This document shows, piece after piece, positions 12,001-44,340 of a DNA stretch of 64,000 nt. Both the position numbers and the translations under genes were made by a program. The stretch comes from Owenia fusiformis (Eukaryota > Annelida > Polychaeta > Sabellida > Oweniidae), in NCBI GenBank assembly GCA_903813345.2, contig CAIIXF020000047.1, positions 1 to 64,000 on the forward strand, read 5' to 3'. How positions within the stretch are numbered: position 1 is the first letter of the stretch; each line of letters opens with the position of its first letter. The notes beneath the pieces are model-generated. The model did no database searches. It was not told the origin of the DNA and saw only the letters and a list, made by a program, of their open reading frames with translations.

Positions 12001-12874
12001 ATGTACATAGCAACAGCGTATGAGTCTAGACAAATTTGAGAGTCCATGTTTGCTTTCCAAAGTTTCAACAGGAATGGAATATAGGCATTGCTTCGTATTT
12101 CAGATGGCTGTCGTTTCAGAAAAAGTGTCCTTTTTTCAAGCTGGCTGATACAGCAAGTAAATACATTTCTTCAGTAAGTTTGGTTTTTGAGAGAAAATCT
12201 TCAAATGATATGTCCTCGCCAAACTTAAGACCATTTATCACTTCATTGATATGGGACCAATTTTCTGTATGTTTTTTGAAATCAGGATTATCCTTGTCTA
12301 AAGGATATAAAATTGTTGTCGATGACATCGGTGGTAGAGGATATCCAAATCTGCACTGGAACTTTTTACCTTTTCTACAAGTGTGTGTGTGCCTGTGTTG
12401 TTGGAGTTGAACCAACTCAGAGAGTTCTTCATCTTCTTCACTTGATGGTATATGGCAGGAAATAACAGAATCGACATAAGCAGTAATTTCAATATCTTGG
12501 CAGTGATTAATATTTGGTGCTCCATCCAACCAAATAAGGGAATGGATATGTGGACTGCCCCTATTTTGGAATTCTACCCTGTAGAAGAAATCCTTTATTT
12601 TTTTAATTGGAGAATCTTTACTCTTTAATGTGTGATTGAAGAGATAATTGACTCTGTGGTTAAAATGTCTGGCACACATAACTGGATCGAGTTGAATGAG
12701 CCTGCACTTTTCAGACCATTTCAAATCCCTTGCTTCCTGTAGTGTTATATCTTCACCATCCAACTTAGCAAGTGTTTGAAGCAAATGAGGCCATCGTGTT
12801 TCAGCCGAAGAGAAGCTACAGAATAGAGTTGGAGGTCCAACAGTTCTAATGCTAAAACTTTGACATCTTGTCAT
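9066..12874 (-). pseudogene. Helentron Rep-helicase-endonuclease polyprotein (frameshifted)
   Basis: Rolling-circle transposase remnant of about 1,270 codons. From the right: Helitron-like N/Rep region with the HUH motif in FQNRGSPHIHSLIW (ORF 12116-12874), then the tyrosine region YAVAMYISSYIMK (10980-12068), Walker A GAGVGKTH and APTGKAA (10850-11089), then helicase motifs DEISMVG, AVGDFGQLAPV and HVHYVALSRA. The C-terminus is an endonuclease/exonuclease/phosphatase domain (LNAQSL, FSETR, GDFNIN, TIDHIYTN) ending at 9066. A Pif1 helicase fused to this endonuclease is characteristic of Helentrons. Three frameshifts are visible: in the A-run near 12130, at the G-run 11058-11060 (one G missing inside Walker A), and near 10900. 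The start is truncated: an in-frame stop lies just upstream of 12874 and the N-terminal zinc-finger region is absent. It cannot make an intact protein. Confidence 0.9.
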
Positions 12875-12974
12875 ACATTCAGTTGACTATACATGTACCA
12901 AATAACTAAGCTCAATATGTATAATTGACGAAGTTATTAAGACTTGAGTGGGTTCCAGTTTTTTTGTCACCCTG

Positions 12975-21000: not shown

Positions 21001-21500
21001 NNNNNNNNNNNNNNNNNNNNNNNNNNNNNNNNNNNNNNNNNNNNNNNNNNNNNNNNNNNNNNNNNNNNNNNNNNNNNNNNNNNNNNNNNNNNNNNNNNNN
21101 NNNNNNNNNNNNNNNNNNNNNNNNNNNNNNNNNNNNNNNNNNNNNNNNNNNNNNNNNNNNNNNNNNNNNNNNNNNNNNNNNNNNNNNNNNNNNNNNNNNN
21201 NNNNNNNNNNNNNNNNNNNNNNNNNNNNNNNNNNNNNNNNNNNNNNNNNNNNNNNNNNNNNNNNNNNNNNNNNNNNNNNNNNNNNNNNNNNNNNNNNNNN
21301 NNNNNNNNNNNNNNNNNNNNNNNNNNNNNNNNNNNNNNNNNNNNNNNNNNNNNNNNNNNNNNNNNNNNNNNNNNNNNNNNNNNNNNNNNNNNNNNNNNNN
21401 NNNNNNNNNNNNNNNNNNNNNNNNNNNNNNNNNNNNNNNNNNNNNNNNNNNNNNNNNNNNNNNNNNNNNNNNNNNNNNNNNNNNNNNNNNNNNNNNNNNN
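21001..21500. other. Assembly gap (500 N)
   Basis: Exactly 500 Ns, a conventional unknown-size placeholder. It adjoins the start of the micro-exon array, so further repeat units may be hidden here. Confidence 1.
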
Positions 21501-22076
21501 GTTTGACTTTACTATACAACTATCGAATGAGTGAATAAGGAGTAATTAGTTACGCTTTAGTGGACTGCATTTGACAGTCAATCGTCTTTTGTGTCACACT
21601 GGTTTGGGAAAGCTTCTAATGTGTTCATTCTGCAGCTTAAATAGTTTAAAACAAACAACAGCTCACTCGTTTGTGTTGCTATCTAAGTGAGGTTTGATGT
21701 AAAATAAAAGAAACGAAAAAACGTTCTTAATATGATAACCCTTATGCAGCCAGGGCCTCGAGCTATGATAAATAGTTTTATGTAATTGTAGAACCTATAG
21801 CTTCTCGTAGTTTTTTTTACTTTAAATATTCTCAAAAAGATGTCTCAAGTTAATGCAAGAATAAATTGATAAATTATTTTCCTTCAAACAGAAGTGAACG
21901 CTAAATACAATTGGTACATACTTTACAAGAAATGTAATGTTTCCTTTGACATAACTAAATATTTAAATCATGAGATTGTCTTAGAATTTTCAGACAAACA
22001 AACTTTACCATGCCAATATGTTATGTTAAGTGGCCAAGAAAAAAGTTTCGCAAATTGTTTCAGGGAAATTGCTTAC

Positions 22077-22109
22077 CTGCCTTTCCAAATCAGCAATTCT
22101 CTTTGCTTC
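22077..22109 (-). CDS. Micro-exon A, 33 nt (EAKRIADLERQ)
   Basis: On the minus strand the acceptor is ...TTCTTTCAG and the donor is GTAAGC. The exon is exactly 11 codons in phase 0 and reads EAKRIADLERQ. It is identical at every base to the exons at 22717, 23785 and 33242. The host gene is unknown. The charged, Ala/Ile/Leu-spaced sequence predicts helix. Being phase 0 at both ends, it can be skipped or included without a frameshift. Exon status is inferred from splice sites and conservation; no transcript evidence is available here. Confidence 0.7.
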
Positions 22110-22716
22110 CTGAAAGAAGACGTATAAAATAATGTTTAGTAACAAATCAAAAATAAACGTTTATTATGTAACTATTAATTACAAAAACTGTGACAAACAT
22201 ATTGATAGAAAAGCATAACAATATGATTAATATCTGATTTGCACTTATCTTATTAGATAATTGGGTAAATTTTACCAAATTGATGCAAAGTAAAAGGACT
22301 GAGTTGTTTGAAGAGTGAATCGGAGTAGTTCTTTCATGCATTTTGCTTCTGTTTATTTCCATTCGTGCTTGAGACATTAACCTCATCCGCCCACTAGTAT
22401 TTTAGTTATATAGGCAGATAAATAGAATTGTTTTATCCATATGCGACCCGAACTTTGTTTTGTGGAATAATCATGAAAAATGTCTCAAATTAACCTAAGA
22501 TTAAATAGATAAATAATTTTACTTCAAACTGAAGTGAACGCTAAATACAATTGGTACATACATACAAGAAATGTAATGTTTTCCTTTGACGTAACTTAAT
22601 ATTTAAATCCTGAGCTTGTCTTAGGATTTTCAGGCAAACAAACTTTACCAAACCAATATGTAATATTGAGTGGCCAAGAAAAAAGTTTTGCAAATTGTTT
22701 CAGTGAAATTGCTTAC

Positions 22717-22749
22717 CTGCCTTTCCAAATCAGCAATTCTCTTTGCTTC
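22717..22749 (-). CDS. Micro-exon B, 33 nt (EAKRIADLERQ)
   Basis: Same exon, acceptor CTTTCAG and donor GTAAGC as micro-exon A. The surrounding intron differs from unit A by small indels and substitutions (for example TTTTCCTTTGACG against TTTCCTTTGACA), while the 33 exon bases are unchanged. Confidence 0.7.
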
Positions 22750-23379
22750 CTGAAAGAAGTCGTATAAAAAGATGTTTAGTAACAAATCAAAAATGAATGT
22801 TTACCATGTAACTATTAATTACAAAAAAACGTGGAAAAACATATTTATCTAATACTTACAGATGTGAGTGTTACACAGATCAAGAAACAAAACAATAGGA
22901 TTAATATCTGATTTGATTGATCATTTTTGATGTTATGAGTATTGGCTATCAATTTTTTTCAATTTTCTTCAACACGTATTGTAATGACTTCAGTATGAAG
23001 GAAATGTCCCTTGGTGTTCTGGTCCTGGATTGTGATATTGGTTCTCGATTGGAGGGGGACGGGGATGTTAGACATTGTTACTGTTCACGTTATATCATGG
23101 TTTTGGGAAATATAGCTCACTCGTTTGTGTTGCCATCTAAGTGAGGTTTGATGTAAAATAAAAGAAATGAGAAAACTTTCTTAATATGATAACCCTTATG
23201 CGACCAGGGCCTCGAGCTAAGAGAAATAGTTTAATGTAATTGTAGAAGCTATAGCTTCTCGTAGTGTTTTTACTTTAAATATTCTCAAGCGGGGTAATGT
23301 TACTATTCAAAATAGTGTCATTGTTGATCTAGCAAGATATCCGCAGATGGCTTTATATATGAAAAGGGTAAACATTTAC

Positions 23380-23424
23380 CTCTTCTATTTTTTGTTTTTC
23401 CAAATCAGCAATCCTCTTTGCCTC
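23380..23424 (-). CDS. Micro-exon C, 45 nt (EAKRIADLEKQKIEE)
   Basis: Minus-strand acceptor ...GTATCTTTCAG, donor GTAAAT, 15 codons in phase 0. The first 11 codons match the 33-nt exon at protein level except Lys for Arg at position 10, with KIEE added. The flanking introns are unrelated to those of the 33-nt type, so exon similarity is not just part of a larger duplicated block. Compared with exon E, four of five base differences are synonymous. Confidence 0.7.
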
Positions 23425-23784
23425 CTGAAAGATACATTATAAAATGGTTTTAAAGGCAAATGGAAAGGATGTTTACAAATATGCATTTATGCTTGAGACT
23501 TTAACCTCATCCCCCACCAGTATTTAATCACAAAGGCAGATAAAAAGAATTATTTTATCCCTCTTGGACCCGAACTTTGTTTTGTGGAATAATCATGAAA
23601 TATGTCTCGAATTAATGCAAGATTAAATTGATAAATTATTTTCCTTCAAACAGAAGTGAACGCTAAATACAATTGGTACATACTTTACAAGAAATGTAAT
23701 GTTTCTTTTGACATAACTAAATATTTAAATCATGAGATTGTCTTAGAATTTTCAGATGCAAATTGTTTCAGGGAAATTGCTTAC

Positions 23785-23817
23785 CTGCCTTTCCAAATCA
23801 GCAATTCTCTTTGCTTC
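23785..23817 (-). CDS. Micro-exon D, 33 nt (EAKRIADLERQ)
   Basis: Identical in sequence and splice sites to exons A, B and F. The intron on its donor side has a deletion relative to unit A (sequence jumps from TTTTCAGA to TGCAAATTGTTTC), again outside the exon. It is the last array exon before the inserted TIR element copy 3. Confidence 0.7.
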
Positions 23818-25900
23818 CTGAAAGAAGTCGTATAAAAAAAGATGTTTAGTAACAAATCAAAAATAAACATTTATTATGTAACTATTAATTACAAAAACAT
23901 TGACAAACATATTGATAGAAAAGCATAACAATATGATTATAATATCTGATTTGCACTTATCTTATTAGATAATTTGGTAAATTATACCAAATTGATGCAA
24001 AGTAAAAGGACTGAGTTGTTTGAAGAGTGAATCGGAGTAGTTCTTTCATGCATTTTGCTTGTGTTATTCATCTAAGAACATTGATACACTTTAGAACAGT
24101 TTTATTGAATACAAGATTGCACCATATTACCCCGAAAATGTTTTTTTTTTATTTCAAGGTTTATCTATTTATTTTCATTTTTCAAACTTCAGAGGACTAG
24201 GAAACATTGATTATGAACGCTTTTGAATAATATATATATATTATATATATATATTATATAATATTCATGGAAGCAAATAATTTCTAAAATTTGTGTAATT
24301 GGTACCCATTCCTTAATCCCTAACATTTTATATTTGAGGAATTCCCCATATTAATCCAATGGTACAGTTCAAAGCAGATTTTGAGATAACAGGAAAGTAA
24401 ATCATTGACACACAACTTATTTTGCCTCTAATACTTGCCTGTATTAAACCAGTGGGGCGTCAACTGATATGCTATGATATGAAATCTATAGAGGTATTAG
24501 TGAGTCAAATTGTATTTTAAGAATGCTAACTTCTATGACTAGCCACACCTTTATCCTAGCAAGAAGACTGTAAATCGACTAATATATGCTATGAATTTTG
24601 TTTTGTTTTCACTCAGGTTTATAGATGATAATTTGTAGATAATAATAAAGTTTGTTTTTTTATTTGCCATAGCATCTGAAATGTTAGATATATTACATTA
24701 ATGATATGATGACATTTTATCTTCACGGCTAATCATGCTATGTAGTCCATGGTATGATTCTGGAATATGAAGAAATCGTAGCACACTATAGCGCAGCGAC
24801 ATTTGAACCAATATTTGAGGAGATGCATATGTCTTGATTTTTTTAAAATACTGTTTGCTGAAAAAACTTCCGGCTTTCGGGTCGAAATCTGCCTGTCATC
24901 ACAAGGGGTCAAAAATCGTAAAAATGTTCATTTGAATTTTAATGCAGACTAAAAGACACAAACCGTAAATGTAAGTATATATACAATTAAAGGATTATCA
25001 TTATATAATATTTAATAAACATCTTGATACAAATGGCGTTGTTTAATTAGTGTGTTACATAAATGTGGTTTTCTGCTTTTTATTTATTTTTTCTTATATT
25101 GATTGAACAAATATACGAAAACTAAGCGAAATATTTAGATAATTCATGGCAACTAACATCTTAGTTTTGTACTACTAAAAACATTATATTTGCTGATTTT
25201 ATTTATATCATTGTCGAGGTAGAAACCACAAATAATTTCTGTTGATTATATACAATATGATCAAATGACAAATGGTTTTGATATTACACTAAAAGAATGA
25301 GCCATTAGTATTAAAATGTTTACACATTTTAAAATGAATGTGTTACATCGTTTAATAGGGATGCGCAATCAAATGCCTCGAATTTATCGTAGTGTCAAAA
25401 AACAAAAAGGCTGTGTCCGCGTCAACAAACCAACATACAAAATGCTATAAATAGAGAGTCAATAAAGCATATATTTCAGTTATCGATTATTTAATGAAGT
25501 AACAATGCTACTCTGCGTGATTGAGAGACAGGAACGAACTTGATGACTGGGGGATGGATGGATGCGATTTGATGATATAAGTTGGAGATTGATGTGATTG
25601 AAAGGTACTCATTTAGTTTTACGAATAGCATAATCCTTTTTTAATTTCCATATATTTTTCAAAGCTATTATAGATGTTTAATAGCGTACATTTTAAATAG
25701 CAAACCTCAAGTTTGAACAAGGGTATTTATTGTGTTTTTCCGAACGGTTTAGTCATATGAACTCCGCTATCAACAAGTTCTGAAATCCTATTACTCCTCC
25801 TTTAAAACATGTGATCTTATCGATTAACATTACATTTTAATTGAAATGAATCATAGTATATAGCATCGATCTCAGTGTATTAAACACTTCCTCAAGCAGG

Positions 25901-26224
25901 ATGGCAAATGTGGCAAAAGGCATCTCTACTCGTAAGCGAAAACAATCGAATGAAACGAATCATAACCATGAACCCGCCGCCAAATATCACACTTATATAT
26001 TACCCGCAAAAATGTCTCCCCGCCTGTGTATATTTTATAGCAAAACAAGAAAAAATGCAAATGACACAAAAGTTCCACTTAACGTTGTGACTTCAGAAAG
26101 AATCATAAAGGGTCATGCTCTTTACGATAGTATAAAACAAAATGATGATAAAGAAATGATGGTATATATTAGAAAGTACGATAGAATATGCTATCACAAT
26201 CAATGCTATCGGTCATACACGTGA
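25901..26224 (+). CDS. Small Cys/His ORF of the TIR element
   Basis: 107 codons starting MANVAKGISTRKRKQSNE, with a basic RKRK stretch that could serve nuclear entry, then CIFYSK (CIFCSK in copy 1), a helix-like middle (VTSERIIKGHALYDSIKQ) and YHNQCYRSYT. A Cx2C pair followed ~60 residues later by Hx3C resembles a zinc-binding fold seen at the start of many uncharacterised invertebrate proteins. That resemblance is from memory of the pattern, not a search. In this copy one Cys is already Tyr. It may be the first exon of a lost transposase. No clear donor site follows the stop. Confidence 0.45.
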   Translation: MANVAKGISTRKRKQSNETNHNHEPAAKYHTYILPAKMSPRLCIFYSKTRKNANDTKVPLNVVTSERIIKGHALYDSIKQNDDKEMMVYIRKYDRICYHNQCYRSYT

Positions 26225-26280
26225 CAAAAATTCCCGTAGTCGTTGAAGAAGAAAACATTTGCTGAAAAGATAGGAAAATC

Positions 26281-28100
26281 AACTATTGCTCACTTGTGAG
26301 TGAACTATTTACAATGGAGGCTTTATCATTATTTCGTTATGTCAGACATTACCCATGTGTGAGTGAGTTCAATTGTTGCTGAGACTACATCAGATTTATT
26401 TTTTATGTCAAGTATTGCTCACTTGTGAGTGAGCTATTTACAATGGAGGCTTTATCATTTATTTCGTTATCTCAGACATTACTCATGTGTGAGTGAGTTC
26501 AATTGTTACTGACGCTACATCAGATTTATTTTTTATGTCAAGTATTGCTCACTTGTGAGTGAACTATTTACAATGGAGGCTTTATCATTTATTTCGTTAT
26601 CTCAGACATTACTCATGTGTGAGTGAGTTCAATTGTTGCTGACGCTACATCAGATTTATCTTTTTATGTCAAGTATTGCTCACTTGTGATTGAACTATTT
26701 ACAATGGAAGGTTTATCATTTATTTCGTTATCTCAGACATTACTCATGTGTGAGTGAGTTCAATCGTTGCGGAGGCTACAACAGATTTATTTTTTATGTC
26801 AACTATTGCTCACTTGTGAGTGAACTATTTGCAATGGAGGCTTCATAATTTATTTCGTTATCTCAGACATTACTCATGTGTGACTGAGTTCAATTGCTAC
26901 AGAGGCTACATCAGATTTATTTTTTTATGTCAACTATTGCTCACTTGTGAGTGAACTATTTACAATGGAGGCTTTATCATTCATTTCGTTATCTCAGACA
27001 TTACTCATGTGTGAGTGAGTTCAATTGTTGCTGAGACTACATCAGATTTATTTTTTATGTCAAGTATTGCTCACTTGTGTGGGAGCTATATACCAGAGGC
27101 TTTATCATTTGTATTTCGTTATCTCAGACATTACTCATGTGTGAGTGAGTTCAATTGTTGCTGAGACTACATCAGATTTATTTTTTTATGTCAACTATTG
27201 CTCACTTGTGAGTGAACTATTTACAATGGAGGCTTTATCATTTATTTCGTTACCTTAGACATTACTCATGTGTGAGTGGGTTCAATTGTTGCTGAGACTA
27301 CATCAGATTTATTTTTATGTCAACTATTGCTCAATTGTGAGTGAACTATTTACAATGGAGGCTTTATCATTTATTTCGTTAGCTCAGACATTACTCATGT
27401 GTGAGTGAGTTCAATTGTTGCTGAGGCTACATCAGATTTATATTTTTATGTCAAGTATTGCTCACTTGTGTGGGAGCTATATACCAGAGGCTTTATCATT
27501 TGTATTTTTTTTATGTCAGACATTACTCATGTGCGAGTGAGCTCAATTGCTTATTTCGTTATATTGGACATTACTCCTGTGTGAGTGAGTTCAATTGCTG
27601 CTGAGGTTACATCAGATTTTTTTATGTCAACTATTGCTCACTTTTGTGGGAGACTAGAGACTAGAGGGGCTTTACCATTTATGTTTCTTCATGTCAGACA
27701 TTATTCATGTGTGAGTGAGCTCAATTGCTAAAGAGGCTACATCAGATCTATCTTTTGTTATATATTGCTCATTTGTGAGTGAACTATGTACCAGAGAGGC
27801 TTTAACATTTTTTTCGTTATGTCAGACATTACTTATGCCTTAGTGAGCTCAATGGCTGCAAATGCTACATCGGGTTTATTTTTTATGTCAGGTATTGCTC
27901 ACTTGTGAATGTAACTTTATACCAGTGAAGGTTTAACATTTGTACTACTTTATTTATTTTAATTTATTTATGTAGGTCTTTACTCATTTGTGAGTATATC
28001 ATATGCCAAAGATACTTTATCAGTTGTATTTCCGTTGTCAAATATTTATAATTTGTGAGTCAGTCAAATCAATTGTATTTATATTAGGAACAATCTTTTG
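26281..28100 (+). repeat. ~130-bp minisatellite array in element copy 3
   Basis: About 14 monomers. Successive TATTGCTCACTTGTGAG starts fall at 26284, 26413, 26543 and 26674, giving periods of 129-131. Each monomer has two dyads (CTCACTTGTGAG and CTCATGTGTGAG). Monomers decay towards the right, and past 27900 only scattered words remain. The ORF at 28104-28409 is continuous in copies 1 and 3 but lies in this decayed zone and has no recognisable domain. Confidence 0.9.
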
Positions 28101-29369
28101 TGAGTGAAATGTCTGCCAAAGGTTCTATTTAGTTCTATTTTTAATGTCATATTTTACTCGTTTTTAAATGGATACTTTTTCAAAGAAATGTTTATCACGT
28201 TTACCGTAGTGTGTGATGTACAACATTCAACACATTCGAATGCCTCTATCTGTGTTTGGCAAATGGTTCGGAATGCCTTTCATATCTTTAATTACGATTT
28301 GTTTTTATTCAGATGTATAAGTGAGTATATCCTACATTTTAGTCTTGCATTAATTTTCCCTTCATTAAAGATCTTATATTATGATCATTTACAGACAGTT
28401 CCCCATTAAACAAAGAGCTTAAAATATAAAACAGGTGCCAGGTTTGTAAATTATTAGCAATTCATAAAGTTCTGACATTTTGGCAAGTTTTTTCGATAAA
28501 ACTAACTTTTTGATATTAAATATGACAAGTAAAGTACTATGAAAAACATTATTGCAATTTATTCATATATGTATCCGATCATTTCCGAATTACTGACCCG
28601 TATTAAATGTGAAATACTAAAAAAGAGCAAGGAAACGTAACAACATAAGATATTTTATTCAATTCATTAGTTTTTCTTTTTAAATTACTGCTGGTTGTCA
28701 TCACATGTTCTCATCACTATGACAAAAATCAAAGAGAAAATTCTCAAAGATTCATGAATTCTACCGATTTTTGTGATTATTTTATAAGAGGCCAGGTGAT
28801 ATCTAATTACAGAAAAATAATTGAATCGTGGTGATAGTCAGCCAAGGAAGAGCGACACGCTATAATTTATTGGTAAATGACCCCTGGGGTTGACAGTCCA
28901 TATCTCAAAACGTATCACGACCAATTTGTTGAAAGACTGATACAATATCAGGATATATCATTTCAAAATAGAAATGGTTCATCCAAAATGTTTACTTCAC
29001 AGATATTTCCTAACACAAGAAAATTGTTGATAGACTGATTTTTATTTTTTTTTGTATTTTTCATGACAATAACCTCACATTTATAGCCGAGAAACATAAA
29101 ACATATGTTTTGTTTTTCTAAAATATGGTTAACTTTAGTATTATTTACCTCAAATTGTGGAAAAAATCCGTTTTTTTTTCTTTTACTTTTTTCACCCATG
29201 GTAATGACAGGCCTAATTCGACCTAAAAGCCGGACGTATATTTAATGGCTGTAATAAAAATGATTACGGGACATATGTAGGTATGTAAATATTAGGTCAA
29301 ATATCGCTGCGCTATAGTGTGCTACCATCTCCTTTATTAGACGTCCTAGAAATTTCATACCATGGACTA

Positions 29370-30258
29370 ATGTGCTTCAGATAGTTTAAGAATCAAGAAT
29401 ATAAAGAAAATGGTGAAAACCCACAAAATAATACATTTCTAAGGTAACAAATAGTGTTACTGTTGCTATAACAGCGGATAAAGATCTGTTCTTGATTTTT
29501 GCCAGACAAATTAAGCCTCATACTGAAATTAATTTCTGAAAAGTTCAAGTCTATATCTTGACTGATGTCAGAGATATAAAGGTGTATTAAAGTACCCCTG
29601 TAGATTTTATCAAGGGGTATGATAAATAGTTTGTAGAGAGTTGCCGAAGGAAGGTTCCCAACGTATATTTATGCTGAAAAGTTAAAACAAACATTGTTAT
29701 CCGAAGAAAACGATAAGCTTTGAACTTTCTGCCAGAATATATTTTGCATGTCAGTTCTTAAGTTGATTTCCTGTAAATATATATATGAAAAATCCGTATA
29801 AAACATGAAAAGTGTTTCACCATCAAATGTTATCAATGCAGATCCTCATACATTTCTCAATCATTAGTCAACTGTATCCATTAAATCAGCAGTTCCCTCT
29901 ATGTATCAAATAGTTAATCAAAGTATAATTCATTGAAAACCCTGCGGAAAAGGTTTACTTCCAGTTTTTTTTTGGGGGGAGGAAGTTGAGTTAATTTCAT
30001 ATTTTGATAATCAAAATTGAGTGACTTGTGTACATATCATTTAATTTCATGGTATGGAAAATTGTTTAAAATCCTATCGAATTGGTAACTACAAGAAAAT
30101 ACTCTATTATGCATAATAAATGTTAAATAATTTTCAAATTAAGTTGTTACCATTCAAAAGATGACCACCGTGCTATTGTCGTCTAATTTTCATATTTTTG
30201 ATGACTTGTTTAAGACGAAAAAAGTTGAATTTCGTTCTCAATATCGATACTAATACTT
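29370..30258. other. Non-coding interval
   Basis: Between the TIR element and the resumption of the micro-exon duplication. I see no exon-like EAKRIADLE sequence and no repeat family. If the minus-strand gene is continuous, this is intron. Confidence 0.5.
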
Positions 30259-30651
30259 CGTTTGACTTTACTATTGCTACAGCTTTAGTGGAGTACATGT
30301 GACAGTCAATCACCTTTTGTACCACACTTGTTTGGGAAAGCTTCTAATGTGTTCATTCTACAGCTTAACATAATTTAAAACAAACAACAGCTCACTCATT
30401 TGTGTTGCTATCTAAGTGAGGTTTGATGTAACTGAAATGAGAAAACTGTCTTAATAAGATTACCCTAATGCGGCCAGGGGGCCTCGAGCTATGATAAATG
30501 TAATCGTAGAAGCTAGAGCTTCATGTAGCTTCTATTTTTTAACTTTACAAATTCTCAAGCGGGGAAATGTTGCTATTCAAAATAGTGTCATTGTTGATCT
30601 AGCAAGATATTTGCAGATGGTCCTATATATGAAAACGGGTAAACTCCTTAC

Positions 30652-30696
30652 TTCTTCTTTTTTCTGCTTTTCCAAATCAGCAATCCTCTTCGCCTC
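30652..30696 (-). CDS. Micro-exon E, 45 nt (EAKRIADLEKQKKEE)
   Basis: Minus-strand acceptor ...GTATCTTTCAG, donor GTAAGG, 15 phase-0 codons. It differs from exon C at five bases: GCA/GCG, AAA/AAG, CAA/CAG and GAG/GAA are synonymous, and one changes Ile to Lys. This pattern suggests the peptide is under selection. Transcription would run F, E, D, C, B, A. Confidence 0.7.
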
Positions 30697-30816
30697 CTGA
30701 AAGATACAGTATACAAATATTTTAAAAGGGAAATGAAAATGATGTTCATAAATATCCATTTATGTTTGACACATTAACCTCATCTGCCAACCAGTATTTT
30801 GGTGCACATAGGCAGA

Positions 30817-32940
30817 AAACAGGATCTTAAGAGGTTCTGGACAAATCATTTGATTCTGGTCTTGTCATATTTTTTTTCAACGAAATCACATCCAAGGGTT
30901 GAATTTTTATTAACTATTTAGAGAGTAAGTCCTGCCTAGTATTAATTTCAATCAAAATTGAAATATTTTTAAAGTGCATTTTTTATGAAATATTATCCAG
31001 CGAGTATTTAGATGAAACGGTCTTATTTAAATACAAATCATAACATGATGATATTTTTCATGAAACATTTTTCATTTTTAATTTAGGTGAAAATCCTCAC
31101 ATGATGATGTGTTTTCATAACTTCCTTCATAAAATTCCATCAAGGAGTGAAGATAAAATGATCGAATTGAAGTGATTTAAGGATCACGAGAATATGTTTT
31201 CTTGGATATTTTCTATGTAATCCCATCCAGTAAAATTTTGATTTTGATTTGGTATTAGGTCACGTGTTCCGAAAGATCCATATAAGGCCCATAGAACCAT
31301 ATAGGAACGTCATTTTGAATGTCACGTGATAGATCCATATAAGGCTTTTAGAACCATGTCTGGAAAGATAAGGGGAAGCCCCTGACACCTGTTTCACGAT
31401 TTTATCGGAACGTTGTTCGGATCATGTTGGTTTTTATGCACTTCATTATTGTACCGAAGTTTGCCGATTCGATTCGTCGAATTTTGGAATCCTGGTGACA
31501 ATTTTATACTCCAATTGGAGTATTTTTGATCTACTTCTTATGACGAAAATTCCCGACCCTTGTTCGGATTAATCCGGATTTTCTGACCTACTTTATCTAC
31601 CGAGATTTCACGAGTTAACATTCGTCTCATTTCGGAATCCTGGTGACAGTTTTATACTCCATTGGAGTATTTTTGATCTACTTTTTCTGGATTTTGCTCA
31701 AATTATAATATCTTGACAACAAGCAAATCAAAACGTTTGAAATGAACGGTTCTCGATCAACTAACCCAGAGCGTGGAAGCCAGGCACGCTAACCATGAGG
31801 CCAACGTGTTGCCGATATGAAAGAGCAAAAGTATTATGTATTTATACCGAGCGTCAATTCAAAATGATCCCCACTTTTGACTCCACTTAATACAACTCGT
31901 CAGTTGTATCCAGAATAGGTGAACGCCTATGGCGCTAGTGGCTTCCATGCTCTAGGCTAGTTTATTGAGACCCATTCATGTCGAACTTTTTGATTTACTT
32001 GTTATCAAGATATAATAAGTAGGGCAAAATCCAGAAAAAGTATATCAAAAATACTCCAATGGAGTATAAAATTGTCACCAGGATTCCGAAATGAGATGAA
32101 TGTTAACTCGTGAAATCTTGGTAGATAAAGTAGGTCAGAAAATCCGGATTAGTCCGAACAAGGGTCGGGAATTTTCGTCATAAGAAGTAGTTAAAAAATA
32201 CTCTAATTGGAGTAAAAAATTGTCACCAGGATTCCGAAATACGACGAATCGAATCGGGAAACTTTGGTACACTAATGAAGTGCATAAAAACCGTGAAACA
32301 GGTGTCAGGGGCTTCCCTCATCTTTCCCGACATGGTTTTAAAAGCCTTATATGGATCTATCACGTGGCATTCAAAATGACGTTCCTTTATGGTTCTATGG
32401 GCCTTATATGAATCTTTGGAACACATGACCTAATAAAAATCAAAATCAAAATGTTACCTTGACCATTGGATGGGATTTCATAGAAAATATCCAAGAAAAC
32501 ATATTCTCGTGATCCTTAAATCACTTCAATTCGATCATTTATCTTCACCCCTTGATGGAATTTTATGAAAGAAGTTATGAAAACACATCATCATGTAAGG
32601 GTTTTCACCTAAATTAAAAATGAAAAATGTTTCATGAAAAATATCATCATGTTATGATTTGTATTTAAATAAGACCATTTCATCTAAATACTTGCTGGAT
32701 AATATTTCATTAAAAAAATGCACTTTAAAAATATTTCAGGATTTGCCTTAATTTATCAATGGAATGTAAGTATTAGATTGACGCTCAGGGTTATATTTTA
32801 ACTTTTTTATTGAAATTAATACTAGGCAGGACTCACTCTCGAAATAGCTAATACAAATTCGACCCTTGGATGTGATTTCGTTGAAAAAAATGACAAGTCC
32901 AGAATCAAATGATTTGTCCAGAACCTCCTAAGATCCTGTT
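30817..32940. mobile_element. Foldback element, 2.1 kb with ~1 kb inverted arms
   Basis: The left end AACAGGATCTTAAGAGGTTC is mirrored by GAACCTCCTAAGATCCTGTT on the right. The arms stay recognisably inverted almost to the centre near 31860, for example GGATCACGAGAATATGTTTT and its inverse near 32490. Comparison with empty units (GGCAGATAAATAGAATTG at 22414) supports an insertion, with AGA as a possible 3-bp target duplication. No protein is encoded. The arms carry internal repeats (ATACTCCAATTGGAGTAT) and the centre has a tRNA-like stretch. Confidence 0.8.
31748..31813 (-). other. tRNA-like sequence near the foldback centre
   Basis: Read on the minus strand, TTGGCCTCATGGTTAGCGTG resembles a tRNA A box and ATCGAGAACC weakly resembles a B box about 40 bases later. 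The mirrored arm has only a degraded version (TGGCTTCCATGCTCTAGG near 31938). A functional tRNA is unlikely; tRNA-derived SINE ancestry is possible. Confidence 0.3.
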
Positions 32941-33241
32941 AGATAAATATTATTGTTTTATCCCTATGCGACCCGAACTTTGTTTTGTGAAATAATCATG
33001 TAAGATATCTCAAATTAATGCAAAATTAAATTGATAAATCATTTTACTTCAAACAGAAGTGAACGCTAAATACAATTGGTACATGTTTTACAAGAAATGT
33101 AATGTTTCCTTTGACATAACTAAATATTTAAATCATGAGCTTGTCTTAGGATCTTCAGGCAAACAACCTTTACCATGCCAATATGTAATGTTGAGTGGCC
33201 AAGAAAAAAGTTTTGCTAATTGTTTCAGGGAAATTGCTTAC

Positions 33242-33274
33242 CTGCCTTTCCAAATCAGCAATTCTCTTTGCTTC
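33242..33274 (-). CDS. Micro-exon F, 33 nt (EAKRIADLERQ)
   Basis: The most upstream exon visible for the minus-strand gene. It has the same acceptor (CTTTCAG), donor (GTAAGC) and 33 bases as exons A, B and D. A gap lies 140 bases upstream, so further exons may be missing from the assembly. Confidence 0.7.
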
Positions 33275-33337
33275 CTGAAAGAAGTCGTATTAAAAAAAAT
33301 GTTTAGTAACAAATCAAAAATAAACGTTTATCATGTA

Positions 33338-33412
33338 ACAAAGAGGGCTGATCAAAATGTTTCTTACCGTTGGCTCTAGATTTTACAATAAGATGAGTTG
33401 GATGCTTAAACT
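33338..33412 (+). mobile_element. Probable mariner-type TIR cut by the gap
   Basis: The duplicated unit is interrupted after TCATGTA by ACAAAGAGGGCTGATCAAAA, which has the GAGGG-TGATCA pattern of mariner-type ends (compare CGAGGGGTGATCAATAAG at 17044). The preceding TA would be the target duplication. The rest is in the N gap. Confidence 0.5.
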
Positions 33413-33912
33413 NNNNNNNNNNNNNNNNNNNNNNNNNNNNNNNNNNNNNNNNNNNNNNNNNNNNNNNNNNNNNNNNNNNNNNNNNNNNNNNNNNNNNNNN
33501 NNNNNNNNNNNNNNNNNNNNNNNNNNNNNNNNNNNNNNNNNNNNNNNNNNNNNNNNNNNNNNNNNNNNNNNNNNNNNNNNNNNNNNNNNNNNNNNNNNNN
33601 NNNNNNNNNNNNNNNNNNNNNNNNNNNNNNNNNNNNNNNNNNNNNNNNNNNNNNNNNNNNNNNNNNNNNNNNNNNNNNNNNNNNNNNNNNNNNNNNNNNN
33701 NNNNNNNNNNNNNNNNNNNNNNNNNNNNNNNNNNNNNNNNNNNNNNNNNNNNNNNNNNNNNNNNNNNNNNNNNNNNNNNNNNNNNNNNNNNNNNNNNNNN
33801 NNNNNNNNNNNNNNNNNNNNNNNNNNNNNNNNNNNNNNNNNNNNNNNNNNNNNNNNNNNNNNNNNNNNNNNNNNNNNNNNNNNNNNNNNNNNNNNNNNNN
33901 NNNNNNNNNNNN
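33413..33912. other. Assembly gap (500 N)
   Basis: A 500-base placeholder between a truncated mariner-like end and the start of the large satellite. True length is unknown. Confidence 1.
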
Positions 33913-36900
33913 TGGATAAAACAGGAAGGTAGGATAGGATAGAATGGGAAGGAACGATAGGATAGAATAAGAAAAAAGGATAGGATAGAACAGAATAGGA
34001 AGAAAGGATATGATAGGAGAGGATAGGAAGGATAGGAAGGAAAGGATACGAAGGAAAGATAGGATAGGATCAGATAGGAAGGATGGATGAATTTTTCAAT
34101 ATTTTCTTCTCTACTCTTGACTTTCTATCAGGATACCATCAGATCGATTTTCCGAAATTTCAAAACGCCATAACTTCCGAACTGGAAGTCGGATCTAAAT
34201 TTGATTTAAAGATTCGGATTCCTGACAAAATTCTACCCCTAATTCATAACTTATACATTAAATTTGGCGAATTTTTATTTTGACCTACTTTTTGGAAACG
34301 ACATAATTTCCTAACCGGAAGTCGGATCTAAATTTGGTTTGCAGATTCGAATTCCTTATAAAATTTTACTCTTAAATCATAACTCATACTTTAAAGACTT
34401 GACTTGGACAAAACTGGACTTGGACCTGGACTTGACCTTGACTTGGACCTGGAAATGAACTGGACTGGTATTTTTTCAATTTTATTTCACTTTTCTTGAC
34501 ATTCTATGAGGGTACCATCAGATCGATTTTCCTCGAACTTTCAAAACGTCATAACTCCTGAACCGGAAGTCGGATATCAATTCGGTTTTCAGATTCGGAA
34601 TCCTGAGAAAATTTCCTATAAGATTATTATCCTGGACATCGGATTCGGAGAACTTTTTTTCGGACCTCGTTTTCGGACACTGATATCTCGAAATCGGTTC
34701 GAGATATCAAAAAACTAATTCGACACTAGCTTTCCTACTTTTTTATGAGGAACACAATGAAAAAAACCCGGATCGAAAATTCTGAAGGACGACTGAGAAA
34801 ATTGAAAAAAGTGACAAAGTACTGGATTTGACCCAGTTCCTGACCTTTGACCTAGATAAAAATTTGACCTAATTTCCGAGAAACTAGATACTGGACCTGA
34901 ATTAACCATATACAGGTCTTGACTCAATGTCTTCTAGTTAAGGAGAAAACGTTGGAAGAATAATAATAATAATAACTAGACTTTGGAAATTGAACGAAGT
35001 TCAATTTCAGACTCCAGATCTAGACTTTTTTTTAGCCGAGTCATCAAGAATAAGCCTAGTCATCCAAAATAAGCTGAGTCATCCAGAAAAAGATGGATGG
35101 ATGGATGGATGGATGGATGGATGGATGAAAAAGGAAGGAAGGATAGGCTAAAATAGGAAGGAACGATAGGATAGAATAGGAAAGAATGATAGAATAGAAT
35201 AGGAAGAAGGAATAGAATAGGAAGGATAGGAAGGAGAGGATACAAAGGAAAGGTAGATAAGAAGGATACGATAGGATCACAAAGGAAGGATGGATGCATT
35301 TTTCAATATTTTCTTCTCTACTCTTGACTTTCTATCAGGATACCATCAGATCGATTTTTCTCGAAATTTCAAAACGCCATAACTTTCGAACCGGAAGTCG
35401 GATCGAAATTTGGTTTGCAGACTCGGATTCCTGAGAAAATTCTACCCTTAATTCATAACTCATATGTTAAATTTGGAATTTTTTTTTATTTTGACCTACA
35501 TTTCGGACACCATATCTCAAAAGTGGGTTGAAATACTTCATGATGGCAAAAAGCTAACATTATTAGCACACTCTTTCCTACCTGTCTACAAAATTTTGAA
35601 GCAAATCATGAAAATATAGTGTCAGAATCGCAAAAATAAAGAAAAACTATGAATTTGACCTAGATTTTGACCTAGGCATTTTGCTGACCAAATTTTGATT
35701 CTAGGTGGCTTTGAGGTCTTCTTCTTTTAAAAGCTTTCATTATATTAAGCTGTATTCAGTCAATATCTTGTATTTTACACTTCAAAAAATTTTTTTTTCC
35801 CATTGACTTAACATGGGGCTCCAAATTTAGCGATTTTGAGCTTTCAAAACGCCATAACTTCCGAACCAGAAGTCGGATCGAAATTTGGTTTGCAGAATCG
35901 GATTCCTGAGAAAATTCTATCCTTAATTCATAACTCATACATTCAATTTGAAGAACTTTTTATTTTGACCTACTTTTCGGACACCATATCTCAAAAGTGG
36001 GTCAAAATACTTTCTGACGGCAAAAGGCTAACACTATTTACACACTATTGGCTACATGTATACAAAATTTCGAAGAATATAATTAAAGTGTAGTGTCAGA
36101 ATCGCAAAAATATGGAAAAACTTTGAATTTGACCTAGATTTTGACCTAGGCCCTGGACTGGATTTAGACCTAGACTTGACTTGAACCTGGACCAACGCTG
36201 GACTTGGACCCGGACTGGACCTTGACTTGGACCTGGAAAAGGACTGGACTGGTATTTTTTCAATTTTTTTCACTTTTCTTGACTTTCTATGAGGGTACCA
36301 TCAGATCGATTTTTCTAGAACTTTCAAAACGTCATAACTCTTGAACCGGAAGTCGGATTTCAATTTGGTTTTCAGATTCGGAATCCTGAGAAAATTTCCT
36401 ATAAGGGGAATACCCTGGACATTGAATTTGGAGAACTTTTTTTCGGACCTTGTTTTCGGACACTGATATCTCGAAATCGGTTCGAGATATCAAAAAACTA
36501 AATCGCTCATTGATTTCCTACTTTTTTATGAGGAACACAATGAAAAAAACCCGGATCGAAAATATTGAAGGACGACTGAGAAAATCGAAAAAAGTGACAA
36601 AGTACTGGATTTGACCCAGATCCTGACCTTTGACCTAGATAAAAATTTGACCCAATTTCCCACCAACTAGATACTGAACCTAAATAAACTGTATTATGGT
36701 CTTTACTTGATACCTTATAGTTATTGAAAAAACTCTTAAAGAATAATAAGAAGAAGAACTAGACTTTGGAAATTGAACGAAGTTCAATTTCAGACTCCAG
36801 ATCTAGACTTTTTTAAGGCCAGTCATCTAAAATTAGCCGAGTCATCCAGAATAAGCTGAGTCATCCAGAATAAGATGGATGGATAAAATTGGAAGGTATG

Positions 36901-39083
36901 ATAGGATAGAATGGGAAGGAACGATAGGATAGAATAAGAAAGAAGGATAGGATAGAACAGAATAGGAAGAAAGGATATCATAGGAGAGGATAGGAAGGAT
37001 AGGAAAGAAAGGATACGAAGGAAGGATAGGAAAGAAAGGATACGAAGGAAGGATAGATAGGAAGGATAGGATAGGATAGGATCAGATAGGAAGGATGGAT
37101 GAATTTTTCAATATTTTCTTCTTTACTCTTGACTTTCTATCAGGAAACCATCAGATCGATTTTCCGAAATTTCAAAACGCCATTACTTCCGAACCGGAAG
37201 TCGGATCTAAATTTGATTAAAAGATTCGGATTCCTGACAAAATTCTACCCCTAATTCATAACTAATATGTTAAATTTGGCGAATTTTTCTTTTGACCTAC
37301 TTTTTGGACACGCCATAACTTCGGAACCGGAAGTCGGATCGTAATTTAGTTTGCAGATTCGGATTCCTGACAAAATTCTACCTCTTATTCATAACTCATA
37401 CGTTAAATTTGGAAACTTTTTATTTTGACCTACTTTTCGGACACGCCATAACTTCCGAACCGGGAGTCAGATTCAAATTTGAATTGCAGATTCAGATTCC
37501 TGACAAAATTCTACACCTAATTCATAACTCATACGTTAAATTTGGAGAACTTTTTATTTTGACCTACTTTTCGGACACCATATCTCAAAAGTAGGACAAA
37601 ATACTTTCTGACGGCAAAAGGCTAACACTATTAGCACTCTCTTGGCTACATGTATACACAATTTCAAAGAATATAATTGAAGTGTAGTGTCAGAATCGCA
37701 AAAATAAGGAAAACCTTTGAATTTGACCTAGATTTTGACCTAGGAATTTTGGTGTCCAAATTCTGAAGCTAGATGGCTTTTGAGGTCCCCTTCTTTTGAA
37801 GGCTTTCATTAAATTAAGCTGAACTCAGTCTATATTTCGTATTTTTCACTTCAAAAAATATCTTTTTCCCATTGACTTAACATGGGCACAAAATTTAGCG
37901 ATTTTTGAGTTTTCAAAACGCCATAACTTCCGAACCAGAAGTCGGATCGAACTTTGGTTTGTAGATTCCGATTCCTGACAAAATTCTACCCCTAATTCAT
38001 AACTCATACATTGAATTTGGAGCACTTTTTGGTGTGACCTACTTTCTGGACGCCATATCTCAAAATCGGTTTGAGATATCAAAAAACTAAATCGACCCTA
38101 GATTTCCTACTTTTTTATGAGGAACACAATGAAAAACACCCGGATCGAAAATATTGAAGGACGACCGAGAAAATCGAAAAAAGTGACAAAGTACTGGATT
38201 TGACCTAATTCTTGACCTTTGACCTAGATAAAAATTTGACCCAATTTCCCACCAACTAGATACTGAACCTAAATGAACTGTATAATGGTCTTTACTGGAT
38301 ACCTTATAGTTATTGAAAAAACTCTTAAAGAAAAATAATAATAACTAGACTTTGGAAATTGAACAAGTTCAATTTCAGACTCCAGATTAAGACCTTTTTT
38401 AGCCGAGTCATCCAGAATAAGCAGGTGGATGGCTGGACTGATGGATGAATGGATGGATTGATAGGAGGAAGGATAGGACAGAATAGGAAGGAAGGATAGG
38501 ATAGAATAGGAAGAAAGGATAGGATAGTATAGTATAGGGTATGAAGGATAGAATAGGATACGATAGAATCCGAAAAAAGAATAGGAAGGGTAGGATAGGT
38601 TAGGAAGGAAGGATAGGATAGGAAGGATAGGAAAGAAGGATAGGATTGGATAGGAGGATATTATAGTCGAGTCATCCAAAATAGCCAAGTCATCAAGAGT
38701 AGGCTGAGTCATCCAGAATAAGCCGAGTCATCCAGAATAAGCCGAGTCATCCAGAATAAGCCGATGGATGGATGGATTGATGGATGAATGGATGAATTCA
38801 TAGGATAGGAAGGATAGGACAGAATAGGAAGAAAGGATAGGATAGGATAGGAAGGATAGAATAGGATATGATAGAATCCGAAGAAAGAATAAGATAGGAC
38901 AGAATAGGAAGGATGGGATAGGAAGGAAGGAAGGAAGGATAGGATAGGAAAGAAGGATAGGAAAGAAGGATAGGATTGAAAAGGATAGGTGGGATGGACA
39001 TAGCCGAGTCATCCAGAATAAGCCAAGTCGTCCAGTCATATCCCTCTTTCCTATCCTTCTTATCCTATCCTTCCTTCCTATCT

Positions 39084-39125
39084 TATCCTATCCTTCCTTC
39101 CAGAATAGGAAGGAAGGATAGGATA
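39084..39125. repeat. Perfect 18-bp-arm palindrome in the GGATA tract
   Basis: TATCCTATCCTTCCTTCC at 39084-39101 is exactly inverted at 39108-39125 around a 6-base loop. From 39036 leftwards the tract is on the CCTAT strand for about 65 bases and then flips to GGATA, which indicates a local inversion. Confidence 0.9.
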
Positions 39126-42100
39126 GAATAGGAAGAAACGATAGGATAGTATAGGATAGGAAGGAAGGATAGGATAGGAAGGATAGGAAAGAAGGATAGG
39201 ATTGGATAGGATATACGATAGGATATAGGAAAGATATAGGATAGGATATAGGATAGGATATAGGATAGGATAGGATAGATAGGATGGATGGAAGGATTTT
39301 TCAATATTTTCTTCACTACTCTTGACTTTCTATCAGGATACCATCATATTGATTTTTTCGATCTTGCGCGTGCATATTGGCAGGTTAAAAAAAGTTTTAA
39401 AATGTCATAACTTTTAAACCGGAAGTCGGATCGAAATTTGGTTTGCAGATTCGAATTCCTGAGGAAATTCTACCCTTAATTCATAACTCATATGTTAAAT
39501 TTGGAGAACTTTTTATTGTGACCTACTTTCTGGACGCCATATTTCAAAATCGGTAAGCGTAATCAAAAATCTAATGTCATATCTTTGCTTTGGCTTTTTC
39601 TAAGCTACATGATGAAAAAAAGATTTAGGAGTTACGACAAACAACGACGAAGATAAATGACAGAATGTTAAAAATGTAAGATTTGACCTAGTTCTTGACC
39701 TTTGACCTAGATAAAAATTTGACCTAATTTCCGAGAAACTAGATCTAGGACCTAAATGGACCATATATAAGACTTAACTCAATATCTTCTAGTTAACGAG
39801 AAAACTGGGAAAGAAAAATAACTAGACATGTAAATTGAACAGGTTCAATTTAAGACTCCAGATTTTAAAGCTGAGTCATCCAGAAAACTTGTAAGCTGAG
39901 TCATCCAGAATAAGCTGAGTCAGCTAGAATATAGACATTTAGACGACTCTTAAGAATGTTATCTTCGACTCCATTGGCTTAACATGGAGATATCATCAGA
40001 TCGACTTTTCGAGACTTCAAACCGATATAACTATCTAACCAGAAGTTGGATTGAAATTTGGATTAAAGATTCGGATTCCTGAGGAAATTCTACCCTTAAT
40101 TCATTACTCATACTTTAAATTTTGAGAACTTTTTATTTTGACCTACTTTTCGGACACCATATCTCAAAAGTTGGTCAAAATACTTTCTGACGGCAAAAGG
40201 CTAACACTATTAACTCACTCTTTGCTACCTGTATACAAAATTTTGAAGCAAATAATTAGAGTGTAGCGTCAGAATCTAAAAAATAAGTTAAAACTATAAA
40301 TTTTACCTAGATTTTGACCTAGGCATTTTGGTGTCCAAATTTTGAAGCTAGATAGCTTTTGAGGTCCGTTTCTTTTATAGGCTTTCATTATTTGAAGCTG
40401 TACTTAGTCTATATCTCGTAATTTACACTTCAAAAAAAATCTTTTTTCCCATTGCCATAACGTGGGGCACCAATTTTAGCGATTTTTGAGCTTTCAAAAT
40501 GCCATAACTTTCGAACCGGAAGTCGGATCGAGATTTAGTTTGCAGATTCGGATTCCTGAAAAAATTCTACCCCTAATTCATAACTCATACGTTAAATTTG
40601 GATTTTTTTTATTTTGACCTACTTTTTGGACACGCCATAACTTCCGAACCAGTAGTCAGATCAAAATTTGGTTTGCAGATTCGGATTCCTGAGAAAATTC
40701 TACCCTTAATTCCTAACTCATAAGTTAATTTATGAGAAATTTTTATTTTGACCTACTTTACGGACACCATATCTCAAAAGTGGGTAAAAATACTTTCTGA
40801 CGGCAAAAGGCTAACACTATGAGCACACTCTTTGCTACCTGTATACAAAATTTTGAAGCAAATTATTAAAGTGTAGTGTCAGAATCGTAAAAATAAGGAA
40901 AAACTATGAATTTGACCTAGATTTTGACCTAGGCATTTTGGTGTCCAAATTTTGAAGCTATGTAGCTTTTGAGGTCCCCTTGTTTTATAAGCATTCATTA
41001 TGTTAAGCTGTTCTCAGTCTACATCTTGTATTTTACACTTCGAAAAAGTCTTTTTTCCCATTGACTTAACATAGGCACCAAATTTAGCGATTTTTGAGAT
41101 TTCAAAACGCAATAACTTCCGAACCGGAAGTCGGATCGAAATTTTGTTTGCAGATTCGGATTCCTGAGATGATTTTACACTTATTTGATAACTCACACGT
41201 TGACTTTGGAGAACTTTTTATGTTCTGACCTACTTTTTGGACGCCATATCTCAAAATCGGTAAGAGTAATCAAAAAACGATTTGCCTTACGGAATTAGCT
41301 TTTTTTCTAAGGAACATGATGAAAAAAACCCGGAGCAAAAATATCGAAGGACGACTGAGAAAACTTGTAAAATAGTGAAAACACACGATTTGACCTAGTT
41401 CTTGACCTTTGACCTAGATAAACATTTGACCTAATTTCCCAGAAACTAGGTCTCATTACCCAGCTGACTATGTTAGCAGATTTTAGTAAGTCCTTCTAGT
41501 TGCTGAGAAAACTGGCAAAGAAAGAATAATAATAATAATAACTAGACATGTAAATTGAACAAGTTCAATTTAAGACTCCAGATTTAAGACTTGTTTTAAG
41601 CTGAGTCATCCAATTACTTGTAAGCTGAGTCATCCAATTACTTGTAAGCTGAGTCATTCACTATAAGCTGAGTCAGCTAGAATATAGACATTTTGACAAC
41701 TCTTAAGAATGTTATCTTTGACTCCATATGCATGACATGGGGATATCATCATATCGACTTTTCGAGACTTCAAACCCCTATAACTGTCTAACCAGAAGTT
41801 TGATCGAAAATCAGATTATAGATTCGGATTCCTGAGAAAATTCTACCCTTAATTCATAACTCATTTTATTTTGACCTACTTTACGGACACCATATCTCAA
41901 AAGTGGGTCAAAATACTCTCTGACGGCAAAAGGCTAACACTATTAGCACACTCTTTGCTACCTGTATACAAAATTTTGAAGCAAATCCTAAAAGTGTAGT
42001 GCCAGAATCGCAAAAATAAGGAAAAACTATGAATTTGACCTCGATTTTGACCTAGGCATTTTGGTGTCCAAATATTGAAACTAGGTAGCTTTTGAGGTCC

Positions 42101-44239
42101 CCTTCTTTTATAGGAATTCATTATCTTAAGCTGTACTCAATCTATATCTCGTATTTTACACTTCAAAAAAATCTTTTTTCTTTGACTTTCTATCAGGATA
42201 ACATCAGATCGATTTTTCTCGAAATTTCAAAACGCCATAACTTTCAAACCGGAAGTCGGATCGAAATTTGATTTAAAGATTCGGATTCCTGACAAAATTC
42301 TACCCCTCATTCATAACTCATACGTTAAATTTGGCGAATTTTTATTTTGACCTACTTTTCGGACATGCCATAACTTTGGAACCGGAAGTCGGATCGAAAT
42401 TTGGTTTGCAGATTCGGATTCCTGAGAAAATTCTACTCTTAATTCATAACTCATATGTAAAATTTGGAGAATTTTTTATTCTGACCTACTTTTCGGACAC
42501 CATATCTCAAAAGTGGGTCAAAATACTCTCTGACGGCAAAAGGCTAACACTATTAGCCCACTCTTTGCTACCTGTATACAAAATTTTGAAGCAAATCCTA
42601 AAAGTGTAGTGCCAGAATCGCAAAAATAAGGAAAAACTATGTATTTGACCTAGATTTTGACCTAGGGATTTTGGTGTCCAAATTTTAAAGCTAGATAGCC
42701 TTCGAGGTCCCCTTCTTTTATAGACTTTCAGAATCTTAAGCTGTACTCAGTCTTTATCTGGTATTTTACACTTCAAAAAAATCTTTTTTCTCATTGACAT
42801 TACATGGGGCACCAAAATTAGCGATTTTTGAGCTTTCAGAACGCCATAACTTCCCAACGAAAAGTCGAATTGAAATTTGGTTTGCAGATTCGGATTCCTG
42901 AGAAAATTCTACCCTTAATTCATAACTCATAAATTAAATTATGAGAAATTTTTATTTTGACCTACTTTACGGACACCATATCTCAAAAGTGGGTCAAAAT
43001 ACTTTCTGACGGCAAAAGGCTCTCACTATTAGCACACTCTTTCCTACCTGTATACAAAATTTTGAAGCAAATCCTAAAAGTGTAGTGCCAGAATCGCAAA
43101 AATAAGGAAAAACTATGAATTTGACCTAGATTTTGACCTAGGCATTTTGGTGTCCAAATTTTAAAGCTAGATAGCCTTCGAGGTCCCCTTCTTTTATAGG
43201 CTTTCAGAATGTTAAGCTGTACTCAGTTTATATCTGGTATTTTACACTTCAAAAAAATCTTTTTTCTCATTGACATAACATGGGGCACCAAATTTAGCAA
43301 TTTTTGAGCTTTCAAAACGCCATAACTTCCGAACCGAAAGTCGGATTGAAATTTAGTTTGCAGATTCGGATTCCTGGGAAAATTCTACCCTTAATTCATA
43401 GCTCATATGTTAAATTTTGAGAACATTTTATTTGACCTACTTTTCGGACACCATATCTCAAAAGTGGGTCAAAATACTTTTTGACGGCAAAAGGCTAACA
43501 CTATAACCACACTCTCTGCTACCTGTGTGCAAAATTTTGAAGCAAATTATTAAAGTGTAGTGTCAGAATCGCAAAAATAAGAAAATACTATAAATTTGAC
43601 CTAGATTTTGACCTAGGCATTTTGCTGTCCAAATTTTAAAGCTAGATAGCCTTCGAGGTCCTCTTCTTTAATAGGCTTTCATTATGTTAAGCTGTACTCA
43701 GTCTATATCTCGTATTTAACACTTCGAAGAAGTCTTTTTCCCCATTGACTTAACATGGGGCGCCAAATTTAGCGATTTTGAGATTTCAAAACGCTGTAAC
43801 TTCCGAACCGGAAGTCGGATTGAAATTTTGTTTGCAGATTTGGATTCCTGAGATCATTCTACACCTATTTGATAATTCACACGTTGAATTTGGAGGACTT
43901 TTTATGTTCTGACCTACTTTTCGGACGTCATTTCTCAAAATCGGTAAGAGTAATCAAAAAACGATTTGCCTTTCGGAATTAGCTTTTTATCTAAGCTACA
44001 AGATGAAAAAAACCCGGAGCCAAAATACCGAAGGACGACTGAGAAAACTTGTAAAATAGTGAAAACTAACGATTTGACCTAGATTTTGACGTTTGACCTA
44101 GATAAACATTTGACCTAATTTCCCAGAAACTAGGTCTCATTACCCAGTTGACTGTGTTAGCAGATTTAAGTAAGTCCTTCTAGTTGCTGAGAAAACTGGT
44201 TCGGAAAGAAAAATAATAATAATAATAATAATAATAATA

Positions 44240-44340
44240 AGAAAACTGGCAAAAGCAATAGACTCCAGATGAAATCTGGAGTCTAATAAGAAAACTGGCA
44301 AAAGCAATAGACTCCAGATTTTCAATCTGGAGTCTAATAA
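44240..44340. repeat. Hairpin module pair (AGACTCCAGAT inverted)
   Basis: Two tandem units of GAAAACTGGCAAAAGCAAT plus a perfect stem: AGACTCCAGAT-GAA-ATCTGGAGTCT (44260-44284) and AGACTCCAGATT-TTC-AATCTGGAGTCT (44309-44335), separated by AATAAG. It lies next to (AAT)n simple repeat. Confidence 0.9.

Follow-up and report, generated by a model that had tools for sequence, protein, structure and literature searches.

In fibrous proteins built from collagen-type repeat exons, one exon encodes a whole number of structural repeats and exon number determines protein length. Very short exons characterise a second class of genes: in the available excerpts of a study of schistosome micro-exon genes (MEGs), these are described as having very short exons, mostly a multiple of three in length, separated by much longer introns, with the vast majority of the exons being 15 bp and the proteins being secreted and equipped with a signal peptide (PMC10526429). 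Exons duplicated in tandem, mutually exclusive ones among them, are homologous neighbours of equal length and phase which arise by local duplication (PMC9741552). Tandem exon duplication and micro-exons are each already known. Here we analyse 64,000 nucleotides of the genome of the annelid Owenia fusiformis (contig CAIIXF020000047.1, positions 1 to 64,000; hereafter the window), in which six exons of 33 or 45 nt form an array on the minus strand. We interpret them, with a probability of roughly 0.7, as tandem-duplicated phase-0 micro-exons of one gene or small gene family which encode an alpha-helical, perhaps coiled-coil, stretch.

The array resembles each of these systems in part. All 13 of the exons described below, in the window and on three other scaffolds, are 33 or 45 nt long and so lie within the 6-81 bp, mostly multiple-of-three range of schistosome MEG exons, but none has the 15-bp length that predominates there. 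MEGs have 10-20 such exons with long introns; six lie on the window piece, which ends in assembly gaps. Unlike MEGs, the array repeats a single charged helical module in nearly identical copies. The likeness to schistosome genes drawn in the original prediction, which was made from the letters of the window, therefore holds for the short multiple-of-three exons and fails for the mostly-15-bp make-up; measured against the excerpts cited above, it is an analogy only. With mutually exclusive tandem exons the array shares homologous neighbours of equal length and phase, but it differs in having six copies, each of 11-15 residues, and in the identity of four of them. Given that identity, choosing one exon out of many would generate little diversity, and we infer that the exons are more plausibly used additively or as skippable units. 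As in fibrous-protein genes there is one exon per repeat, the module here being a charged helix of 11 or 15 residues. Among the matches listed from open-licence literature on micro-exons and tandem exons, coiled coils, GBPs and annelids, as far as the available excerpts extend, we recognised no account of this array.

Exon anatomy and duplication

Direct reading and a scan of both strands bear out the prediction of six minus-strand exons at the positions listed in Table 1. The scan, which allowed up to 9 mismatches in 27, returned these six and two other matches, both on the plus strand with 9 mismatches each and with stop codons present. The CAG acceptors, the GTAAGC, GTAAGG or GTAAAT donors and the phase of 0 that had been claimed are found in six of six, each exon running from a codon boundary directly after TTTCAG to a codon boundary directly before its donor. 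Two types can be distinguished: the four A exons are identical at every base (acceptor ttctttcag, donor GTAAGC), and the two B exons have the acceptor atctttcag and a peptide that can be abbreviated EAKRIADLEKQKKEE/KIEE. In transcript order the exon starts are 2578, 6879, 393, 675 and 640 bases apart. It follows from the lengths and phases that any combination of the exons stays in frame, as had been proposed.

The six exons stem from an A-B pair that was duplicated. Self-alignment reveals one such unit, repeated, with 23114-23543 matching 30389-30819 and 23538-23882 matching 32941-33339. Because of these matches, A33242 and B30652 can be recognised as once having been one unit, which is now split by a 2.1-kb palindromic element. 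The B part is absent after both A22717 and A22077, with the frame undamaged. A sequence jump at 22353/22360 reflects either loss of B or copying of A alone, and at a second jump, at 21835/21836, the B-holding stretch is gone. Since B is absent twice without damage to the frame, module number has changed by whole exons. The surrounding DNA was duplicated as well, however, so that six copies do not amount to six independent events, and the copies in the window, having introns in common, prove little alone.

Copies on other scaffolds and coding constraint

The regions of the A and B exons, used separately as queries against the genome, gave matches on three small scaffolds, C70, C217 and C376 (the window lies on C47). 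These hold seven diverged copies (three, three and one, respectively), each in phase 0 and on the minus strand of its own scaffold. Together with the window this makes 13 exons on four scaffolds, all of them in phase 0. AG/GT and an open frame are kept in 13 of 13, although an open frame and AG formed part of the search criteria for the copies. The original prediction had taken gaps on both sides of the array as a sign of further copies. Extra copies do exist, but those found sit on other scaffolds, and the gaps (21001-21500 and 33413-33912) are assembly gaps of 500 N each. As the array piece lies between them, its neighbours and orientation are not secure. Genome searches with pieces of the array, in which only first-look candidates were scored and which divergent arrays may therefore escape, found arrays only on C47, C70, C217 and C376, a dispersed repeat of about 193 bases aside; the matches in one of these searches were at E 0.36 or worse. 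This repeat (22923-23115 in the window) occurs at no fewer than 38 places outside C47. Scanning both strands of the four scaffolds for similar exons gave 15 matches, namely the 13 known exons, a 51-nt exon and a 40-nt plus-strand match, the last two on C70; the scoring was derived from the known exons and the scan is therefore no independent test.

The divergent copies lend support to in-phase micro-exons that are constrained at the protein level. Between scaffolds, the first 33 exon bases have a mean identity of 0.81, against 0.46 and 0.39 for the two flanks when compared without gaps (57 pairs in each case). With gaps allowed over 62 bases the flanks reach 0.61 and 0.56, where random DNA gives 0.52 (standard deviation 0.04, 300 random pairs). 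The differences between scaffolds number 50, 90 and 217 at codon positions 1, 2 and 3, of 627 each. Third positions hold a share of 0.63 of the differences among 10 distinct haplotypes (permutation p = 0.0002). For the between-scaffold pairs listed, 23 of the 57, 68 of 145 differences sit in synonymous codons, and random changes of the A exon would be expected to give a synonymous fraction of 0.19. Within the window, the four A copies have no variable columns in 33 exon positions as compared with 35 in 248 gap-free flank positions (P ~0.007 if sites are independent). The exon anatomy, the duplication and the coding-type constraint across four scaffolds are shown by these data, and most likely every exon contributes to the products of one gene family a module of 11 or 15 residues that is helical and perhaps coiled-coil.

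The proposed helical module and the weighing of the evidence

Joining all six modules in their genomic order gives a chain of 74 residues, of which 22 are acidic and 21 basic. The helical hydrophobic moment of this chain over 90-110 degrees is 1.16, a value reached by 1 of 2000 shuffles, and the moment is at least 0.81 in all 1089 arrangements that combine two to six modules. When made-up module lengths of 9-19 residues were compared, the hydrophobic seam was lost at 9, 12, 13 and 16 (0.16-0.27) and kept at 11 (1.27) and 15 (0.81), as well as at 10, 14, 17 and 18, with a weaker value at 19 (0.62). Neither Pfam nor PDB yielded a convincing match in searches whose queries contained the modules.

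A number of observations weigh against our interpretation. With respect to the helix, lengths of 11 and 15 are allowed but not unique, since the seam also survives at 10, 14, 17 and 18. The best single angle over 80-130 degrees is 125, as against the helical 98-103, and a strict 11-residue repeat can yield a 125-degree harmonic; periodicity alone is therefore no proof of a coiled coil. The evidence for the micro-exons comes from genomic DNA, and no start, end or other exon of a host gene was identified on the four array scaffolds. The permutation and P values given above treat related copies as independent and thus overstate independence. Two copies, C217:3077 and C376:10179, have the weak donor GTATTT and differ from the C47 A exon by 1 synonymous and 6 replacement changes and by 0 and 5, respectively; such copies may be decaying. 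These two align with each other over about 190 bases of exon and intron. Intron-like DNA is shared between scaffolds too. The segment C70:649-961 is 82.5% identical to the C47 intron at 23921-24231 and 88% identical to that at 22211-22359, which is about as alike as the exons are, and C70:579-679 is 82.5% identical to 22813-22915 of the window. This intron-like piece (C70:579-961) sits 10 kb from the C70 exons, and no A-like exon was seen beside it. Intron-like patches around the C70 exons themselves reach 275 bases at 67%, and C217:1048-1282 is a more distant relative (72%) of the same intron part as C70:649-961. The latter may be a truncated or relic unit, or a dispersed repeat. This intron likeness weakens the exon-versus-intron contrast with C70 but not the evidence from codon positions, which is independent of the C70 piece.

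Several of these points would also be expected if the array were a relic, that is, if the sequences were once gene exons and are now dead fragments spread by segmental duplication on scaffolds that are hard to assemble. The array scaffolds are small (152, 36, 25 and 18 kb) and rich in repeats, the host gene was not found, B is missing twice, donors are weak at C217:3077 and on C376, and C70 carries a piece of intron with no exon. We nevertheless consider a pseudogene array unlikely. All 13 copies combine an open frame with phase 0 and AG/GT, although an open frame and AG were among the search criteria; the differences between them are concentrated at third positions, and the four A exons of the window are identical while their flanks vary.

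If the array does consist of working micro-exons, these would be spliced on the minus strand, their modules may form a helix or coiled coil, and module number would then set helix length. One could go further and picture a splice-tunable helix made of interchangeable 11- and 15-residue phase-0 modules, each close to a whole number of helical turns, in which the length of a coiled-coil rod is set by the choice of exons and by their gain or loss in the germline while frame and seam remain unbroken. We put this forward as a tentative idea, with the odds clearly against it. Were the modules to be spliced in varying numbers, the array would offer a compact natural system in which to ask how the length of protein rods is measured, and one also suited to following exon gain and loss one repeat at a time. 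Genes with such exons can be missed, as the exons are short and lie on small, repeat-rich scaffolds bounded by gaps, and the copies on four scaffolds provide a ready comparison of constraint in exons and introns.

Table 1. Positions and peptides of the micro-exons and of other features of the window and related scaffolds (window coordinates unless a scaffold is named).
Feature	Position	Strand	Peptide or description	Phase, donor or source
A exon 1, 33 nt	33242..33274	-	EAKRIADLERQ	phase 0
B exon 1, 45 nt	30652..30696	-	EAKRIADLEKQKKEE	phase 0, donor GTAAGG
A exon 2, 33 nt	23785..23817	-	EAKRIADLERQ	phase 0
B exon 2, 45 nt	23380..23424	-	EAKRIADLEKQKIEE	phase 0, donor GTAAAT
A exon 3, 33 nt	22717..22749	-	EAKRIADLERQ	phase 0
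A exon 4, 33 nt	22077..22109	-	EAKRIADLERQ	phase 0
Gap-bounded assembly piece	21501..33412		holds entire window array	gap positions
Duplicated units	21836..24065	-	one A-B unit followed by two A units that lack B	self-alignment
Palindromic (fold-back) element	30818..32940		in former single A-B intron	self-alignment
C70 exons		-	EAKRIADLEKQRKEE (45 nt), EEKRLAELKKQ, EAKRIADLEKQ	
C217 exons		-	EAKRIADLEKL, ESKRNADIEKQ, EARRIADWERQ	
C376 exon		-	EAKRNADIEKQ	
COR domain exon	54777-56120	+	ROCO-Death type gene	Pfam
Death domain exon	60910-61263	+	ROCO-Death type gene	Pfam

Host gene candidates and neighbouring sequences

Pfam searches with seven open reading frames (ORFs) of C47 returned COR, Roc, Death and PIF1-type helicase domains, none of which names the gene to which the array belongs. 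Exons shared between the scaffolds were sought by comparing ORFs of at least 18 residues from C70, C217 and C376 with all four scaffolds, which gave 1938 matches. Those listed comprise all 86 with C70 queries and part of those with C217 queries (121 in total), together with later C217- and C376-query matches among C70, C217 and C376; most of the 356 between C217 and C47 and the 1427 between C376 and C47 lie outside them. Among the matches listed we recognised no further shared exon, only repeats, the micro-exons and their flanks.

On C70, a helix-like exon of 90 residues (ORF 35457-35738) with a phase-0 donor lies upstream of the micro-exons on the same strand, and a 51-nt phase-0 exon, DRLSEELQLIEKEIQHK (22627-22677), stands ahead of them. 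No second copy of the 51-nt exon was found at E 10. As a protein query the 90-residue exon matched only itself in the genome and nothing among PDB sequences, and the joined C70 chain gave eleven weak PDB matches, the best of them (E 0.086) to ribosomal protein eS17. The order, strand and phase of these exons and the micro-exons would suit an array that encodes the coiled-coil tail in a large GTPase of GBP/atlastin type. GBP-type genes are present in the genome, and three of its five GBP_C matches, those that were read, end in phase 0. A GBP_C-like exon on scaffold C26, used as a query, placed the C70 exon first of 7680 ORFs, but at E 9.2. Yet Pfam gave no GBP match for the C70 exon, only Sir1 (E 0.062) and Tox-ODYAM1 (E 0.73) below the cut-off; an atlastin profile left it among chance matches (E 99); and a profile made from three of the genome's own GBP_C exons did not list it at E 20. 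Furthermore, one of the GBP_C exons that were read begins in a different phase, the link between the C70 exon and the micro-exons is one of position only, and a stop-ending ORF between them (C70 29940-30278) could terminate the gene of the 90-residue exon. A GBP/atlastin tail is accordingly a very doubtful account of the array.

Aligned with the atlastin that this genome encodes, the C70 exon scores 62, which 8 of 500 shuffles also reach, and aligned with the C26 exon it scores 39 (41 of 1000 shuffles as high); for two exons on scaffold C2, 184 and 962 of 1000 shuffles did as well. GBP/atlastin identity of the C70 exon, which its look suggests, is unsupported by the Pfam and profile tests. The C26 exon itself (C26:47453-47695, minus strand) falls under the curated cut-off and lies near the end of a 48-kb scaffold.

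The neighbouring piece of C47 carries a gene of ROCO-Death type, in which COR and Death domains are confirmed. The micro-exons could be part of this gene if the array piece had been scaffolded back to front, and the 500-N gaps on both sides do leave its orientation open; upstream of the COR exon, C47 has no convincing Roc exon. We regard this arrangement as highly improbable. On C47 a gap separates the two, which also lie on opposite strands, and nothing on C70, C217 or C376 matches Roc, COR or Death at E 0.5 apart from one hit at E 0.20. Further along C47, another Death exon and one for Roc are present (C47:91554-91823 and C47:150680-151084, both on the plus strand).

Other repeated sequences lie around the array. 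The palindromic element has relatives at three places on C217 among the matches listed. A large tandem region occupies 34000-53000, with units of about 133 and 475 bases and GGATAG-rich arrays, and related DNA occurs on C376, again among the matches listed. Repeated ORFs at C47:72154-76215 suggest a direct duplication with copies about 3.45 kb apart. Long ORFs lie on the minus strand at 9069-12886; one of them contains a PIF1-type helicase and a stretch with weak likeness to an endonuclease, and we take them to be Helitron-like.

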